A stretch of 64,000 bases of DNA, from assembly GCA_017656345.1 (NCBI GenBank), contig JACDNZ010000007.1:1-64000 (forward strand). The letters run 5' to 3'. Below, in pieces: positions 5,657-64,000 of this stretch (the stretch's first letter is position 1; every line of letters begins with the position of its first letter). The notes under the pieces were generated by a model. The model searched no databases, was not told where the DNA came from, and worked only from the letters and a program-made list of their open reading frames with translations. This DNA is from Thermosipho sp. (in: thermotogales) (GTDB taxonomy: Bacteria > Thermotogota > Thermotogae > Thermotogales > Fervidobacteriaceae). The position numbers were made by a program, and so were the translations under genes.

Positions 5657-7936
5657 TTAATTAATTTGAAAAATCTTTTTAATGAATTCCTTGTTATATT
5701 CAAAATCATAATCTGAAAAAATCGACTTTCCTAAAATTATTACTTCACCATTACCTACTTTTACTTTTACAGCCAAAATTACTTTATCAACTGGTAAAGC
5801 ATCATTATTACCATCTCTGTCTTCTGTATCTGCAGTATTTGATTCAAGTAATATCTCTGCATTTTCATCTTCAACAACCAATGAACAAGGACTATAAAAC
5901 CTCACATTGTTAACAAGAATTTTGTAGTATGCCCCATAATTATTGACATTATCTACAACTTGATCATCATTAAATCTTATCTTTACACCTAAATGTTCAA
6001 GAATTAAATTCATATCGTATGTATTCCCACCATTTGAATAATCACTTTTACTTGTTATAATCAATTTGCCGCCTTTTTTTACGAACTTGACAATATTTTC
6101 TAATTCCAGATTTGAATAATTCTTTCCATTCTGAATCACTAAAATATCACAATTTAAATCTTCCAAAACGTTTAAATACCTAACTTTTAGACCTCTAGAA
6201 ATTAGATATTGTTCCAACAGTTTTAATTTATCTCTTCTATAGTCATTACTGTGCCCTTCATCAATACATACAACATTAGTTTTCATAAATTCCGTTTCCA
6301 TTAATCCAAAATAACTTTTTATTTCTTCAACATTAATTATTTTCCCTTTAATTTTTTCAGAATAAATTTTAAAATACTTCTCGTCGCCTCCAGGGATTAT
6401 AACAATTTCTCCATTGAATTTGTTGAGTGCATCTAATTCTTGTGGAAATAAATCTTTTGAAAAATCAAATCCTCCACTTTTCGGAGTAGGAATTATTATA
6501 ATATCAATATTTTCAAATTCATTTAGCATTCTTTTGGAAAATAATACTGTATAACCTGCTTTTTCAAATAAGGGAACTAATGATTTTAAATAATCCAGAT
6601 GGTCGTTTTCGTGAAGAACATCTATTAATACTGTCTTTCCAATCTTTTTCTCTACAAAAATTTTATATGATTGCACAACTTTACCATTAATCAAAAACTT
6701 TATAGTATGAACCCCCTCAGACAAATTTGTTAATTCCACATTTTCTGCTTTTTTTTCATATGGAGAAAATAAAATAATTTGCTGTAATACTTCATTTTCA
6801 TTGTCAACAATTCTTAACTCCACTTTTGTAGCACTTTCAGTGACATTGTAAATATCAAAAAACACTTTTACATTGTCACCAGCTTGTAATTTCAACGGAT
6901 TTTGTCTGATATTGTTGATATAAACAGGTGATTCTATCTGAAACCATATTGGCGAAGTTACTATTTCATTTGAATCTATTTGCTGTGCATACACAAAATA
7001 CCACTCATATCCATCGGGAATTTCAACCAATATATCTGTCGAATAATTACTAACATTAGGATAATATTCAACTAATGTCCCTGATTGTGATACAATTGCA
7101 AAATAACGAAGAATATCTGTGTCTTGATATTCAAAATGAAGAACAACATTCTCAGGAGGATTATATACAATGTCACCCATAATATAATTTTTATACGAAA
7201 AATCAATTCTAACATTCTTATCCTCAGTACCAAAAGTATGTCTCTTCCATAAAGCACTCATAATGCTTTCATAAGCCAATTTATCAGAAATAATACCGGT
7301 TCTTCCTTCATTAGCACTCCCCCAATTGGGTTTATGGTTATCTTGCCCCACCGTTGCACCCAAGTGCCATCCTTTATTCAAGGCTAAAATATAATTACCA
7401 TACATTTCTGAATTAATAACATCACTTAATGCCCAATTACCATTCCCTACTTCAATTAGATTCATATATAAATCAGCTTCTGGATAATAAATAAAATCAT
7501 TAAACGTTCCAAACATATTAATTGGATGATTAAATTGCCCAAGTTTTTTATGGGCAATAAGCCACTTATACAAACCTTCTACTGATCCATCAATGTTTCT
7601 ACTGATCCACTCTACCGATTCATACACATTTATATGGCCTATTCCTGCAGTCCACTCGAAACCTTGCAAAGCAACAAATTGACCTGGAACAGTAAATCTT
7701 TCAGCCGCTTGCTTAGTCAAATAAGCTTTTTCTTTCCCATTTATAAGCTGCGTAAAATAGTAGGCATGATCTGTTATTGCCTGAACATCAACATAATTTT
7801 TTGCATAATTATAAGCATCTTCGGGATACAAACTCCCATCAGAATAAGAAGTATGAGCATGTAAATTCCCATAATATATATTTGAAAAAATTGGAACTGA
7901 TATTAAAACAAGTAAAACTAAAAGCAGTTTTTTCAT
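5657..7936 (-). CDS. secreted PHP-domain metallohydrolase (CehA/McbA-like) with long C-terminal region
   Basis: The 759-residue protein begins with a signal peptide (MKK, about 14 hydrophobic residues, then a likely cleavage near FSN). The PHP domain follows immediately: NLHAHTSYSDG supplies the first histidines, AITDHAYYF the next ligands, and GFEWTAG, FNHP and GQDNHKPNWG later ones. This resembles CehA/McbA-type hydrolases, so a metal-dependent phosphoester or carbamate/ester hydrolase is plausible. From about residue 330 there is a beta-rich region and then an alpha/beta region with two segments that look like glutamine-amidotransferase-type Rossmann folds (near 430-520 and 560-640). It stands alone with its own promoter. 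The substrate is unknown. Confidence 0.75.
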   Translation of the reverse strand: MKKLLLVLLVLISVPIFSNIYYGNLHAHTSYSDGSLYPEDAYNYAKNYVDVQAITDHAYYFTQLINGKEKAYLTKQAAERFTVPGQFVALQGFEWTAGIGHINVYESVEWISRNIDGSVEGLYKWLIAHKKLGQFNHPINMFGTFNDFIYYPEADLYMNLIEVGNGNWALSDVINSEMYGNYILALNKGWHLGATVGQDNHKPNWGSANEGRTGIISDKLAYESIMSALWKRHTFGTEDKNVRIDFSYKNYIMGDIVYNPPENVVLHFEYQDTDILRYFAIVSQSGTLVEYYPNVSNYSTDILVEIPDGYEWYFVYAQQIDSNEIVTSPIWFQIESPVYINNIRQNPLKLQAGDNVKVFFDIYNVTESATKVELRIVDNENEVLQQIILFSPYEKKAENVELTNLSEGVHTIKFLINGKVVQSYKIFVEKKIGKTVLIDVLHENDHLDYLKSLVPLFEKAGYTVLFSKRMLNEFENIDIIIIPTPKSGGFDFSKDLFPQELDALNKFNGEIVIIPGGDEKYFKIYSEKIKGKIINVEEIKSYFGLMETEFMKTNVVCIDEGHSNDYRRDKLKLLEQYLISRGLKVRYLNVLEDLNCDILVIQNGKNYSNLELENIVKFVKKGGKLIITSKSDYSNGGNTYDMNLILEHLGVKIRFNDDQVVDNVNNYGAYYKILVNNVRFYSPCSLVVEDENAEILLESNTADTEDRDGNNDALPVDKVILAVKVKVGNGEVIILGKSIFSDYDFEYNKEFIKKIFQIN

Positions 7937-10607: not shown

Positions 10608-11619
10608 AAAATTCCTTTATTTTATCAACAACATAATCAATATCTTTCTTTTTAATCCAATAATGAGTTACAAACCTAAATATACCATTTTCTGATGGAT
10701 TTATTTTTATTTTATTAGTTAGCATATGCTTTATAAATTCTTCCTCAATAAATTCTTTTTTTATTCTAAAGAACACCATATTTATTTCTACTTCCTCAAG
10801 TATATCTATAAATCCCAATTTCAATAACTCATTTGCCAGATATTGTGCGTTTTCATGATCTTCATACAATCTGAATCTCATTTTTTCAAGCGCTATTATT
10901 CCGGCTGCGGCAATAATTCCAGCTTGTCTCATCCCTCCACCCATTATTTTTCTTTTTCTCCTTGCCTCTTTTATAAAATCCTTAGAACCTACCAACAAAG
11001 ATCCAATTGGCGCACATAACCCTTTAGAAAGGCAAAAGCTTACCGAATCAGCATATTTTGCAATTTCTTTTGGATCAATATCTAAAGCAACTGCTGCATT
11101 AAAAATCCTGGCACCATCAAGATGTATAGGAATATCATATTTATCGGCTATTGACTTAATTTCTTCAAAATTACTAAGTGGAATAACCCTTCCATTCGAA
11201 TGAGCATTTTCAAGACATATTAATCCTGTTCTCGGATAATGTATATCTTCAACCTTTCTTATTGTCTCTAAAACCTTTTCTGGAGGCAACATTCCTTTAT
11301 ACGTTTCAATTGTTCTAAGTTGAACTCCCGATATTATAGCTGAAGCACCTGCTTCATGCTGTACTATATGCGTATCTTCACCTAAAATTACTTCATTCCC
11401 TCTTTCACAATGTGTAAAAAGCGCTAACTGATTTGCAAAAGTTCCACTTGGTACAAAGACTGCATCTTCTTTTCCAAGAATCTCTGCTGCCATTCTCTCT
11501 AGTTTATTTACAGTAGGATCATCTCCATATACATCATCACCTACTTCAGCATAACACATTGCTTTTCTCATTTCTTCAGTAGGTTGAGTCACTGTATCAC
11601 TTCTCAAATCAATGTACAT
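10597..11619 (-). CDS. low-specificity L-threonine aldolase
   Basis: The 340-residue PLP enzyme of the beta-eliminating lyase family opens with DLRSDTVTQP and GDDVYGDDPTVN. HxDGAR (IHLDGARIFNA) supplies the PLP-ring ligands and SFCLSKGLCAP carries the Schiff-base lysine. It cleaves L-threonine or L-allo-threonine to glycine and acetaldehyde. The ATG at 11619 is preferred to the GTG directly before it because of the GGGGTGA site. It is the last gene of the long minus-strand operon starting at 17829, just after the RlmN-like radical SAM gene. Confidence 0.94.
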   Translation of the reverse strand: MYIDLRSDTVTQPTEEMRKAMCYAEVGDDVYGDDPTVNKLERMAAEILGKEDAVFVPSGTFANQLALFTHCERGNEVILGEDTHIVQHEAGASAIISGVQLRTIETYKGMLPPEKVLETIRKVEDIHYPRTGLICLENAHSNGRVIPLSNFEEIKSIADKYDIPIHLDGARIFNAAVALDIDPKEIAKYADSVSFCLSKGLCAPIGSLLVGSKDFIKEARRKRKIMGGGMRQAGIIAAAGIIALEKMRFRLYEDHENAQYLANELLKLGFIDILEEVEINMVFFRIKKEFIEEEFIKHMLTNKIKINPSENGIFRFVTHYWIKKKDIDYVVDKIKEFFKN

Positions 11620-59274: not shown

Positions 59275-60963
59275 TTACAATCCATACTTTTCCATTTTAT
59301 AATAAAGAGTTCTAAGACTTATACCTAATGATCGTGCTGTTTTTGTTCTATCGCCTTTGTTTTCTTTAAGTACACTTTCAATTACTTTTCTCTCAAAATC
59401 TTCTACCAAAGACTTTAACGAACCTTCGTATTTAAAACTTTCAAAAGTCTGTTCCAAAAACAATGTTGGGAAATGCCTTTTTTCAAGTACACTTTCATTA
59501 ATGTTCATATTTATAATTGCTCGTCCAATCACATTTTCTAATTCTCTAACATTACCTGGCCAATCATAGCTCATAAGGTACTTTATAGCAATCGTAGAAA
59601 TCTTATCAATCTTTCTTCCAAACTGTTGTGCTATCTTTTTAGAAAGACATTTTGCAAGCAGCGGTATATCATCCTTCATATCCCTTAAAGGAGGCAAATA
59701 TATTGGAAAAACATTTAATCTGAAATACAAATCACTTAAAAATTTACCTTTCCTTACCAAATCTTCAAGATCCATATTTGTTGCAGCAATTATCCTCACA
59801 TCAACTTTTTTAACCATTGTGGATCCTACAGGAATAAATTCTTTTGTCTCTATAAATCTAAGGATTTTCGCTTGAAGATTAATCGGCATTTTTCCTATTT
59901 CATCAAGAAATAAAGTTCCACCATCTGCTTCTTCTATTAAACCCATTTTTCCTTCTTTTCTTGCACCTAAAAAAGCCCCTTCAACATAACCAAAAAGTTC
60001 CAGCTCAAGAACATTTTCGGATATTGCTGCACAATTTACACTTACAAATGGCCCATTTCTTCTATTACTCTCATTGTGAATTGCATGTGCAAACAACTCT
60101 TTCCCTGTGCCACTTTCACCTCTTAAGAGAACCGTTGCAGGCGTCCTTGCAACCTTTTTAGCTTGTTCTTTTGCCATTTGGATTTTTTCAGAATTTCCAA
60201 TAATATCATCGAAAGTATATTGGGCTTTCACTTGTCTAATTATTCGTTTCATTTCTTCTAATTCTCTGGTTAACGCAAAAATCTTTGAAACATCATGTAC
60301 AACTGCAACACTCCCACTAAATTTTCCTTTCACAAATAAAGGTTCTGCATTGACAACTACCTCTTTTTTTGAAGGACCTACTTTTAACCTTGCATTATAA
60401 ATCGGTTTTCTTGTTTTAGCTATTAACATATGAATACTTTCACCTTCAGCAATATCTACAGTAGCTGGTTTCCCTATAACTTCTTCAGGCTTATAACCAG
60501 TAAGTTCAGTATATGCCTTATTTACTAAAACAACATTTCCAAACTCATCTGCTACTGAAATAGCATCATAAGTGGAATCAATTATTGCTTTTAATCTTGC
60601 TTCAATTTCATGTAAATTTGTAATTTCTTCAGCTAACTTTCGGATACTTGTTATATCTCTAAAAACTGCTACAGCTCCAACAATATTATCCATTTTATCT
60701 TTCAAAGGCATTCGTGACGTTACAATAATGTTTTTCCCAACATTTTGAACTTCGTCAATTTCCGGGATTCCTGTCCTAACAACTATATGTAATCTTGTAT
60801 TTGGTATCACGTCTGTTACCGGAATACCAACAAACTCGCCATCTAAATTTAAAAGACGCACGGCTGTCTTGTTAATATACAAGATCCGTGCGTCTTTATC
60901 CACAATAATTACTCCTTCAACAATTGACTCCAAAACTGACCTATACAACTGAGAAAGTTCCAT
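59275..60963 (-). CDS. PAS-PAS-AAA+-Fis transcription regulator with altered sigma-54 loop
   Basis: The protein of about 562 residues has two PAS domains (about 5-110 and 120-235), an AAA+ sigma-54-activator domain with Walker [16 protein letters not shown], Walker [13 protein letters not shown] and R-finger region [15 protein letters not shown], and a Fis-type HTH ([17 protein letters not shown]). The sigma-54 contact motif GAFTGA reads GAFLGA, as expected if it does not use sigma-54 in the normal way, similar to TyrR. It sits inside the operon between yjbQ and the MBL gene. PAS signals are unknown. The ATG at 60963 is preferred to GTG at 60972. Confidence 0.85.
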
Positions 60964-60964
60964 A

Positions 60965-61375
60965 TTACTCACCTATCACTTTTACTACTACTCTTTTCTT
61001 TCTCTGACCGTCATATTCAGCATAAAAAACCTGTTCCCAAGGACCAAGATCCAGTCTTCCATTTGTTACAGGTAATATAACTTGATGATGTGTTAAAATA
61101 CGTTTCAAATGTGCATCTCCATTATCTTCACCTGTCCAATGATGATTATAATCCCCAACAGGAGCCAGCTTTTCAAGCCATTCCCAAATATCTTTATGAA
61201 GCCCTGATTCATCATCATTGACAATTATACCAGCAGTAATATGCATTGCTGAAACCAAACAAAAACCTTCCTTTATTCCACTCTCCTCTACTATTCGTTC
61301 AATTTCATCAGTTATTCTAATTAAATCCTTTCTTTTTTTTGTATTAAACCATAAGTATTTCGTATAACTTTTCAT
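60965..61375 (-). CDS. YjbQ family (UPF0047) protein
   Basis: The 136-residue protein has the family motif [22 protein letters not shown] and [28 protein letters not shown] with its conserved aspartate and histidines. YjbQ homologues have shown weak thiamine-phosphate synthase activity, though the true role is debated. The start overlaps the ATP-grasp gene stop as ATGA, so both are expressed together. Confidence 0.85.
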
Positions 61376-62316
61376 AAATCTTCCCCCTTATAGCGTTTCA
61401 TTGAAACTTCTAAAATTTTTAATATTAAATCATCGTAGGACATTCCAGCAGCTTCCGCCATTTTAGTAATATCAGAATAAATTGGAACTAACTGTGGCAT
61501 TGAATTAACTTCAAGAAAGTAAATTTCATTATTTCTAATCCTAACATCCATTCTCGCATAATCTCTTAAAGAAAGTACTTTAAACAACTTCTTTGCATAA
61601 AATTCGAGTTTTTCTTTAATGTCATTGGGAATTCTTGCAGGACAAATATAATTTGTCTGTTCACCATAATTATGTTTTACATTATACGAATAAAATCTCT
61701 CTAAACCTTCTGGTAATACTGAAAAATCAATTTCTAAAATTGGAAGAACTTCTATCTCTTCACCATTACCTATCAACCCTACGCTTACTTCTGTACCATC
61801 TATAAACTCTTCCACCAAGGCGGGCTGATTAAATTCCTTGTGAATCTTTAAAACTTGCTCTCTTAGATCTTCAATATTGTTAACCACAGAATCTCTGGTT
61901 ATTCCTCTGGCACTTCCTTCTCTCGGTGGTTTTACAATATAAACTTTGTCATCCATACTTTCTGGGAGTTCTCCTATTTCAAAATATTCAAAACTTGGAG
62001 TCGGTATATTATGATATTTCATCATTATCTTTGTAGTTATTTTATCTAAACATAATGAATGCGAATAAGCGTTTGATGACGAATAAGGAATGTTTAATAA
62101 ATCAAGCAAAGCTGGAACATGAATTTGTTTTGTTTCCTTTCCACCCTTATTTGAAAGATTAAACACAAAATCATAATTTGTTATCTTTTCCATAAAATTT
62201 TCATCGAAAGGCACTAGTTTGCACTCAAATTTCTTTTCTATAGCATTTTTTACACTTTCAACCATTTTTTTCTCTTCAGCATTCAAATCCTTTTCAAACA
62301 CTATTGCTATTCTCAT
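61372..62316 (-). CDS. D-Ala-D-Ala-ligase-like ATP-grasp enzyme
   Basis: The 314-residue protein has the D-Ala-D-Ala ligase form of the ATP-grasp fold: [68 protein letters not shown] and [13 protein letters not shown]. Residues fit ligases joining an amine to a carboxylate. It differs from a housekeeping Ddl by being embedded in an operon with a B12-mutase-like gene, so a different amino-acid or peptide substrate is likely. It overlaps both neighbours by 4 bases. Confidence 0.82.
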
Positions 62317-63950
62317 ATCCCAGCCTCCTTTTTTAATATTCCTATTCTCCTACTTTCAGTTAAAATATTACCGTTTTCATCAATTGCAAAATTTGCACCA
62401 TTAATTATTCGCGTTTCAAACCTTCCCTTTGCCACTGAAAGTCCTTTCAATCCTGGAGCATCCAAAATTCCCACCTTGACAGCATTATAAATGACTTCTG
62501 GTACGACTAATGGATCATCATATTCGCTTCCAAGCTGTTTTATTGCTTCTATTATTTCCATAGCCTCTTCTTTTAATTCTTCAACTCTATTTCTTACATC
62601 TTTATCTTCCATAAAATCAGGTAATCCTAACATTGCATTTCTCATCGCCTGTTTCACCATTTTAACACTTTCTATAATTTCCTTACTGGTAGCCCTTCTA
62701 ATAGCTTCAGAATATGAAACTACATGTAAAATATCAGGCTTTAAATACATTCCATAAAACATTGTGCTCACTAATTGACCCATTGCCGAATTTTCATCAG
62801 CCGGGAATGATAAAAGTCCTGTTCTAACCATAGTATATGAAATAAAATTCTCATCATGTAATGTCTCAATAAGTTGCTTTTTTGCAATTTGCTTTGCTAA
62901 ATCAAATTTTGGTGAAAGTCCCGGAGGAGTCGTTAACATATACTGTGCAACGTAATGTTTTACACCTAATTTTTTTGCATTGTATGCAGCTAAATAAAAT
63001 GTTGCTACTTCTATAGCATCATGGGCATATCTTAAAGCCCATTGATGGGCTTCATTTATTTCAACAGGAACACCATTCATGGCATTCCATTTTATTGCTT
63101 CTTGATTCTCCTTTATGGCACTTAAAAGATCTCTATCGGATCTTCTATCAAGCTCCGAATACCATGTTAACGGTATGGCAGCCCATGCATTATTAATAGT
63201 TTCTTTTAAAATCTTCGAAAATTCTAGAAGATTATTCGTTCCCGAATAACAACGAATTAAAGGATAGTTACCTCTTCTTGATGCCTGGTATAATCTTTTA
63301 AAATCATCTACGGTCCTTATTGGGGCCCCGCCTGCACCATCTTGTTTTTTATCCATTTTTTCAGGTTCAAAAAAATGTTGTTGACAATTTTGATCAGGAG
63401 CAAGTGAAATTATATCGAGTAATCCAGATTCAGCCAAAATCCTTATGTGTTCTTCTGTTTCTTTAATTGTCGATAATCCTATATGATGTCTTATAAGTGG
63501 ATATGGACTTTTATATCTTATTCTTTCCGGAAGAGTTTGAGGAGGTATTTTTAACTCTCTTTTTTCCACTTCAATATTTCTAAGCCATAAAACAACCTCT
63601 TCAATTTCTTGGGTTCCATCAAAAACTTTTGAGATAAATTTAAAGTTTCTAGCAATATTACCTGTTTCAATAGTACCTCCAAATATGTAAACCTTATCCA
63701 ATAAATTATTTTGTTCCAGTTTTTTATATAATTCATCTAATAAGCTTTTTAAAGCCTTAGGATCCAGTCTATAACTAATTGCAACTATATCAGGATCAGT
63801 CTCTATAATTGCACCAATCAATTTATTTAAACTAACAGCTCCACCCAAATAAATTGTTTCATATCCCTCACTCTCAGCAAGTTTTAGAAAATTTAACAAC
63901 CCAGCTATGTGAACACAGCTGCCAATGGATGCCCCCAATATCTTTTTCAA
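62313..63950 (-). CDS. single-chain glutamate-mutase-like cobalamin protein
   Basis: The 545-residue protein joins an N-terminal B12-binding Rossmann domain (about 1-125) to a large barrel domain. The B12 motif GSCVHIAG replaces the usual DxHxxG with CxHxxG (C12, H14, G17); glutamate mutase S has GSDCHAVG here. The barrel resembles glutamate mutase E: RCYSGTNNLLEF, PVEINEAHQW, and the C-terminal AVKVGILDAPG. In glutamate mutase these are separate subunits. The start is TTG at 63950, overlapping an upstream stop. A radical carbon-skeleton or amino-group mutase is inferred; substrate unknown. Confidence 0.75.
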   Translation of the reverse strand: MKKILGASIGSCVHIAGLLNFLKLAESEGYETIYLGGAVSLNKLIGAIIETDPDIVAISYRLDPKALKSLLDELYKKLEQNNLLDKVYIFGGTIETGNIARNFKFISKVFDGTQEIEEVVLWLRNIEVEKRELKIPPQTLPERIRYKSPYPLIRHHIGLSTIKETEEHIRILAESGLLDIISLAPDQNCQQHFFEPEKMDKKQDGAGGAPIRTVDDFKRLYQASRRGNYPLIRCYSGTNNLLEFSKILKETINNAWAAIPLTWYSELDRRSDRDLLSAIKENQEAIKWNAMNGVPVEINEAHQWALRYAHDAIEVATFYLAAYNAKKLGVKHYVAQYMLTTPPGLSPKFDLAKQIAKKQLIETLHDENFISYTMVRTGLLSFPADENSAMGQLVSTMFYGMYLKPDILHVVSYSEAIRRATSKEIIESVKMVKQAMRNAMLGLPDFMEDKDVRNRVEELKEEAMEIIEAIKQLGSEYDDPLVVPEVIYNAVKVGILDAPGLKGLSVAKGRFETRIINGANFAIDENGNILTESRRIGILKKEAGI

Positions 63951-64000
63951 TCTATCACCCCTTCATTTAATAACTTCTTTATTTCATCTATGTTGAGATT
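63947..64000 (-). CDS. C-terminus of an upstream gene, cut by the window edge
   Basis: An open frame enters from beyond base 64000 and ends with the last 17 residues NLNIDEIKKLLNEGVID and a TGA that overlaps the TTG start of the mutase-like gene. The overlap and an embedded GGGGTGAT site mean the partner upstream gene is co-translated. The protein cannot be identified from this fragment. Confidence 0.7.
   Translation of the reverse strand, partial: NLNIDEIKKLLNEGVID

Follow-up and report, generated by a model that had tools for sequence, protein, structure and literature searches.

A single-chain B12-dependent mutase-like protein of Thermosipho coupled to an opine dehydrogenase, with a probable role in compatible-solute synthesis

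A novel B12-dependent family was predicted by Zhang, Rodionov, Gelfand and Gladyshev in 2009 from 11 bacteria, Thermotogae among them; no function was given, and the family was described as carrying an N-terminal homologue of the B12-binding domain and as always standing beside an octopine/nopaline dehydrogenase, with D-Ala-D-Ala ligase and asparagine synthase near (PMC2667541). The closest enzymes of described function are glutamate mutase (MutE/MutS, GlmES), which holds its substrate by a claw of three arginines, R66, R100 and R149 (PMC10947579), and the aminomutases D-ornithine 4,5-aminomutase (OraE) and lysine 5,6-aminomutase, which bind PLP by a lysine in addition to B12. Here we describe a mutase-like protein encoded in a window of 64,000 nucleotides, the whole stretch of Thermosipho DNA that was analysed (GCA_017656345.1, contig JACDNZ010000007.1), and all window features discussed below lie on the minus strand. 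The protein almost certainly belongs to the family of Zhang et al., as matched by their description: an Octopine_DH gene is adjacent, and a Ddl or Asn synthase gene is nearby. Beyond that description, our analysis adds the glutamate-mutase fold, the Cys/Asp pattern of the B12 motif, the loss of the arginine claw, a fusion to MutL, an exact co-occurrence with the dehydrogenase, a much wider range that includes archaea, and riboswitch control. A later functional assignment or riboswitch association was not found in the literature searched, whose scope left out most subscription papers, and the riboswitch link appears to be unreported in that literature.

The gene (62313-63950) begins with a TTG start, encodes 545 residues by ORF translation, and has its closest named relatives in Thermosipho at 83% identity. 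It overlaps by 4 nt with the upstream opine-dehydrogenase gene and by another 4 nt with the downstream gene for a Ddl-like ligase, and through these overlaps it is translationally coupled to both. The preliminary description had claimed that one chain unites a MutS-like and a MutE-like part, and this was borne out by Pfam, Foldseek and hhalign. A B12-binding Rossmann domain (residues ~1-130; 63561-63950) is recognized by PF02310 at residues 3-65 (E 3.7e-7, 30.4 bits, just under the cut-off of 32.1), by PDB profile matches to corrinoid proteins, OraE and MutS, and by the resemblance of the N-terminal part of the model to B12 subunits such as 4r3u_C (Foldseek, 2.1 A across 131 columns). It is followed by a glutamate-mutase-E-like barrel (residues ~150-523; 62382-63503), supported by an hhalign alignment with MutE (probability 88.5, E 2.7e-6), by Foldseek, and by a PF06368 (MutE) match at residues 367-499 (E 4.2e-6, 26.0 bits, just under the cut-off of 26.6). 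The AlphaFold2 model built from 66 homologues has a mean pLDDT of 94.8 and a pTM of 0.91, and Foldseek ranks glutamate mutase E first among PDB structures (1cb7_B, E 1e-16), ahead of ornithine 4,5-aminomutase, lysine 5,6-aminomutase and then methylmalonyl-CoA mutase; the observation of the preliminary description is thus confirmed. The Cys that it had noted in place of the Asp of the DxHxxG motif is likewise present in the direct translation, as C12-V-H14-I-A-G17 (63900-63917). Judged from the translated residues, the elements of His-on B12 binding appear to be in place, namely H14, G17, the S-x-x-L element S59-Y-R-L62 and the GG pair G91-G92.

The protein thus shares with glutamate mutase the barrel fold, the B12 Rossmann domain and the motif His, but differs from it in having the B12 domain first in one chain, where MutS and MutE are separate, and in the residues of the active site. 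By profile alignment against eight MutE-type sequences, which is not a superposition, the claw residues R66, R100 and R149 of MutE align with H156, Q190 and Y235, and Glu171 aligns with P260. In the same alignment, Lys326 and Glu330, which we take to hold the adenosine in glutamate mutase, correspond to V411 and E415, so that the Glu330 equivalent is a further point of likeness. H156, Q190, Y235 and E415 are invariant in the 66 homologues and are kept in both distant subfamilies introduced below, as are R154, R233, D268, R270, E297, H302, R307, Q336, D350, K353, R376 and H409; as far as residue conservation can tell, these barrel residues may have a catalytic role. Because the three substrate arginines are replaced by the family-invariant His156, Gln190 and Tyr235, and Glu171 is not kept either, we rule out that the protein is glutamate mutase proper, and the MutE equivalog model TIGR01503 gave 16.2 bits at a cut-off of 390.1. 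With OraE and lysine 5,6-aminomutase, the protein shares B12 and the architecture of barrel plus Rossmann domain, in an order that is the reverse of that in OraE. Unlike in these two enzymes, there is no conserved counterpart of the PLP-binding Lys629 or Lys144: by profile alignment, Lys629 of OraE belongs to a segment that is inserted with respect to the mutase family, and no conserved Lys is found there. A PLP aminomutase of the OraE or KamDE type is therefore ruled out. A secondary amine would be unable to form an aldimine with PLP, and the missing lysine would hence fit an opine as the substrate.

The Cys of the B12 motif is not specific to the Thermosipho protein. Of the 66 aligned homologues, which span Thermotogota, Bacillota, Bacteroidota, Ignavibacteria and archaea, among others, 52 have Cys two positions ahead of the Co-ligating His and the remaining 14 have Asp, with no other residue in any of them, and His14 and Gly17 are invariant (66/66). 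On a tree built without the motif column, the Cys/Asp label requires 3 changes; a broad clade has Cys in all of its 43 members, and Asp is confined to a Thermotogota-centred clade. Two distant subfamilies, represented by loci L155 and L187 and related to the window protein at ~34-36% identity over the aligned length, have DAHTLG and, in the MutL-fused case of L187, CVHSLG. Since 52 of 66 homologues carry Cys and both states occur in distant subfamilies, Cys is the normal state of this mutase family, and the homologue alignment together with the tree rules out that it is a sequencing error or a private oddity. The preliminary description had read the Cys as a peculiarity that might hint at lost classical chemistry; this is not supported, as Cys prevails, Cys and Asp interchange, and a CxHxxG relative is fused to MutL. 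Its other suggestion, a mutase of another specificity, is supported by the replacement of the claw by other invariant residues. Cys12 would take over the role of the Asp as partner of the Co-ligating His14, and as Cys and Asp are both ionisable, the His-on mode is presumably kept.

The fusion in L187 (1063-4143; genome G064, contig 59) joins the mutase to a MutL/GlmL-type reactivase in a frame of 1232 aa, with a PF13941 match of E 1.5e-74, and lies directly behind another Octopine_DH gene. Its CVHSLG sequence shows a Cys in the motif to be compatible with a reactivase-dependent enzyme. A similar mutase-reactivase frame of 1245 aa was seen in another genome (G431). BtuR genes occur within 2 kb of the module in L086, L093, L123 and L124, and this proximity, together with the MutL fusion of a CxHxxG relative, points to working adenosylcobalamin (AdoCbl) radical chemistry. 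The co-occurrence of adenosyltransferases across genomes was considered as a proof of AdoCbl use as well and was dismissed as uninformative: BtuR or PduO is present in nearly all Thermotogota, with or without the mutase. As to the other distant subfamily, the 634-aa variant with DAHTLG (L155:5925-7829, genome G030) replaces the usual protein and lies in an operon of the order dehydrogenase-ligase-mutase, and similar forms of 600-660 aa were seen in Bacillota (L169-L172).

Most of the functional information comes from the genomic context, which the preliminary description had not covered and much of which lies outside the window. The partner gene upstream extends beyond the window, which contains its 3' end (63947-64000); the whole gene occupies 63947-65032 of the contig (C7; 5948-7033 of locus L036). 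Its product matches PF02317 with 152.9 bits at a cut-off of 30, and N-(1-D-carboxyethyl)-L-norvaline dehydrogenase (CENDH, 1bg6) with E 9e-78 over 348 residues. H198, R289 and D294, corresponding to the His, Arg and Asp that we take to be the catalytic residues of octopine dehydrogenase, are invariant in 88 homologues, so the partner resembles CENDH in its catalytic residues, while its substrate may differ. An Octopine_DH gene adjoins the mutase gene in ~92 of 101 loci. Among 61 Thermotogota genomes, both genes are present in 38 and both absent in 23, without exception; among the former, G030 has no mutase other than the distant 634-aa variant, and the co-occurrence figure of 2.7e-17 is not a proper probability, because the 61 genomes are related. 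The module ranges over Bacillota, Thermotogota, Bacteroidota and archaea, and the mutase was found in 85 of 398 sampled Bacillota genomes (about one in five); a plasmid search with the window protein gave no match. In some loci the dehydrogenase carries a PTS EIIA-2 (PtsN-like) domain at its N-terminus (L114:3135-4736, L123:3017-4594 and L124:6421-7992, the last by phmmer similarity only), as individual observations.

The third gene of the module (61372-62316) encodes a D-Ala-D-Ala-ligase-like ATP-grasp enzyme (PF07478), and a separate, better-scoring Ddl is encoded elsewhere in the same genome (C14:8405-9007). Such a Ddl-like gene is the module partner in 35 loci. In 20 loci an Asn-synthase-like gene is found, whose product has AsnB, beta-lactam synthetase and CarA among its relatives and is without the glutaminase Cys in 19 of these loci; another ATP-grasp protein (Hathewaya) or an NAD-synthase-like protein (Theionarchaea) occurs elsewhere. 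Common to all of these variants is the ATP-dependent activation of a carboxylate. As a rule the genes run in the order dehydrogenase-mutase-ligase, and the ligase gene precedes the dehydrogenase gene in some loci. In Hathewaya (L071) and a relative (L068), the ATP-grasp gene lies between dehydrogenase and mutase, and the module is situated inside a polysaccharide cluster with a flippase gene and glycosyltransferase-like genes. Around the window copy, the module is part of a long operon with genes for a DnaJ homologue, NAD synthase, glycerate kinase, a YjbQ/UPF0047 protein (60965-61375) and a PAS-sigma54-activator regulator (59275-60972), as well as two further genes resembling grpE and hrcA. 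The YjbQ protein and the regulator share the operon with the mutase in Thermosipho-type genomes; for both, membership in the pathway is uncertain. The closest NCBIfam model of the regulator is PrdR, with 452.5 bits and thus far below the cut-off of 795.

A further line of evidence comes from the leaders of the module in Bacillota. From genomes with the mutase, 60 Bacillota leaders were taken, and 40 of them were scanned with Rfam, by which the c-di-AMP riboswitch RF00379 was found in 22, on the same strand and near the gene start; other Rfam leader scans also placed such riboswitches before the module in L085, L092 and L178. With a model built from 13 of the found aptamers, 24 of the 60 leaders had a c-di-AMP riboswitch and 36 had none, and as this model was trained partly on the same leaders, the Rfam counts are the independent ones. 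Control DNA of 400 kb from 20 of the same genomes contained no c-di-AMP aptamer. Some of the Bacillota riboswitch loci are close relatives, and grouping of the dehydrogenases at 70% identity gives at least 9 clusters. In the loci inspected, the aptamer mostly lies ~90-120 nt before the dehydrogenase start, with exceptions in L205 (6 nt), L092 (200), L229 (463) and L219 (493), and in L238 our script found no dehydrogenase start behind the aptamer; many leaders show terminator-like hairpins with T-runs. Two c-di-AMP riboswitches stand in tandem before a single opine-dehydrogenase gene in L205 (1173-1299 and 1439-1562). One Desantisbacteria contig (L106) has two nhaA-I RNAs (6763-6816 and 11456-11508), of which one precedes the dehydrogenase gene and the other the Asn-synthase-like gene, and the pair is a small ion-responsive regulon. 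Rare variants of the nhaA-I RNA were reported to sense Na+, and osmolyte genes, ablA and eam among them, are known targets of c-di-AMP and Na+ riboswitches (PMC9337991). Genes of mechanosensitive channels (MscS) lie within 6 kb in L097, L098, L110, L112, L125 and L135, and Na/H-exchanger genes lie near the module in L098, L106 and L134, all as individual observations. A fluoride riboswitch was seen in the leader of a dehydrogenase-mutase pair (L117:6685-6746); FMN riboswitches in L173 and L174 lie downstream of the mutase gene, and the genes that follow are probably their targets. No cobalamin riboswitch was found among the loci scanned, and none of the riboswitches, RF00379 included, turned up in Thermotogota, with the window and its locus (L036) among the DNA scanned, so that the osmotic link of the window copy rests on homology.

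Taken together, we think it probable that the protein is an AdoCbl-dependent mutase in an opine-linked pathway that makes a compatible solute. The coupling to an opine dehydrogenase and the c-di-AMP riboswitch in many Gram-positive bacteria suggest this role in making a salt-stress protectant, and the MscS and Na/H-exchanger neighbours and the EIIA fusions are in keeping with osmotic control. The mutase would be a radical enzyme with the glutamate-mutase fold in one chain and another substrate. In the most likely order of steps, the opine dehydrogenase, as its homology predicts, would link an amino acid and a keto acid through a secondary amine and so yield an N-(carboxyalkyl)amino acid. Next, the B12 enzyme would generate an adenosyl radical, abstract a hydrogen and rearrange this product, and the ligase would convert a carboxylate to an amide. 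The pathway would probably end in a compatible solute, small and either neutral or zwitterionic, and osmotic and ionic signals may switch its synthesis through the c-di-AMP and nhaA-I riboswitches. In this complete form, with rearrangement of the opine, subsequent amidation and c-di-AMP switching in Bacillota, the proposal is tentative, and we put its chances somewhat below even. The set of mutase, ATP-grasp ligase and dehydrogenase recalls, by way of analogy, the logic of PylB, PylC and PylD in pyrrolysine biosynthesis; PylB is a radical SAM enzyme, unlike the B12 mutase.

The mutase could instead act first and deliver an unusual amino acid, such as a branched isomer, on which dehydrogenase and ligase act later, with a solute still as the product. 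Glutamate mutase and OraE, as known relatives, use free amino acids, and the ligase gene precedes the dehydrogenase gene in some loci; the loss of the substrate arginines and of Glu171 speaks against this option, as does, weakly, the usual gene order, and we regard it as possible and rather doubtful. That the module makes a building block for the cell surface, a residue with an opine or amide linkage in a capsule or wall polymer, is unlikely: the polysaccharide cluster of Hathewaya and its relative would fit a glycan-attached residue, the ligase is Ddl-like and c-di-AMP riboswitches also regulate cell-wall genes (PMC9337991), but most loci have no adjoining glycan genes, the module is present in archaea, and the nhaA-I riboswitches and the MscS or antiporter neighbours do not suit such a role. 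Opine dehydrogenases are reversible, and PrdR is the nearest model for the regulator at 59275-60972, from which a Stickland-like breakdown of opines or amino acids in anaerobes could be proposed. We consider this improbable, given the PrdR score far below its cut-off, the use of ATP by the neighbouring ligases and the off-switch c-di-AMP riboswitches, which are generally atypical of catabolic operons. Finally, the replacement of the conserved Asp could mark a corrinoid-binding regulator or an inactive protein; as many polar barrel residues are kept even at ~34-36% identity, and a relative is fused to MutL while others have BtuR neighbours, this is the least credible of the readings and very improbable.

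With few B12 mutases known and an active site different from theirs, this family bears directly on B12 enzymology, and the presence of Cys within the axial-ligand relay represents a natural experiment on the Asp-His-Co motif. Most sampled Thermotogota relatives and around a fifth of the sampled Bacillota genomes carry the mutase, and with the riboswitch evidence what was an orphan enzyme becomes part of a pathway that can be tested. If the compatible-solute proposal is true, salt or low c-di-AMP should induce the module, and NMR should reveal the solute that accumulates. To our knowledge, no other osmolyte pathway depends on B12, so this one would then be the first; secondary amines would be a new substrate class for B12 mutases, and a B12 and cobalt demand of salt-stressed anaerobes would be explained.
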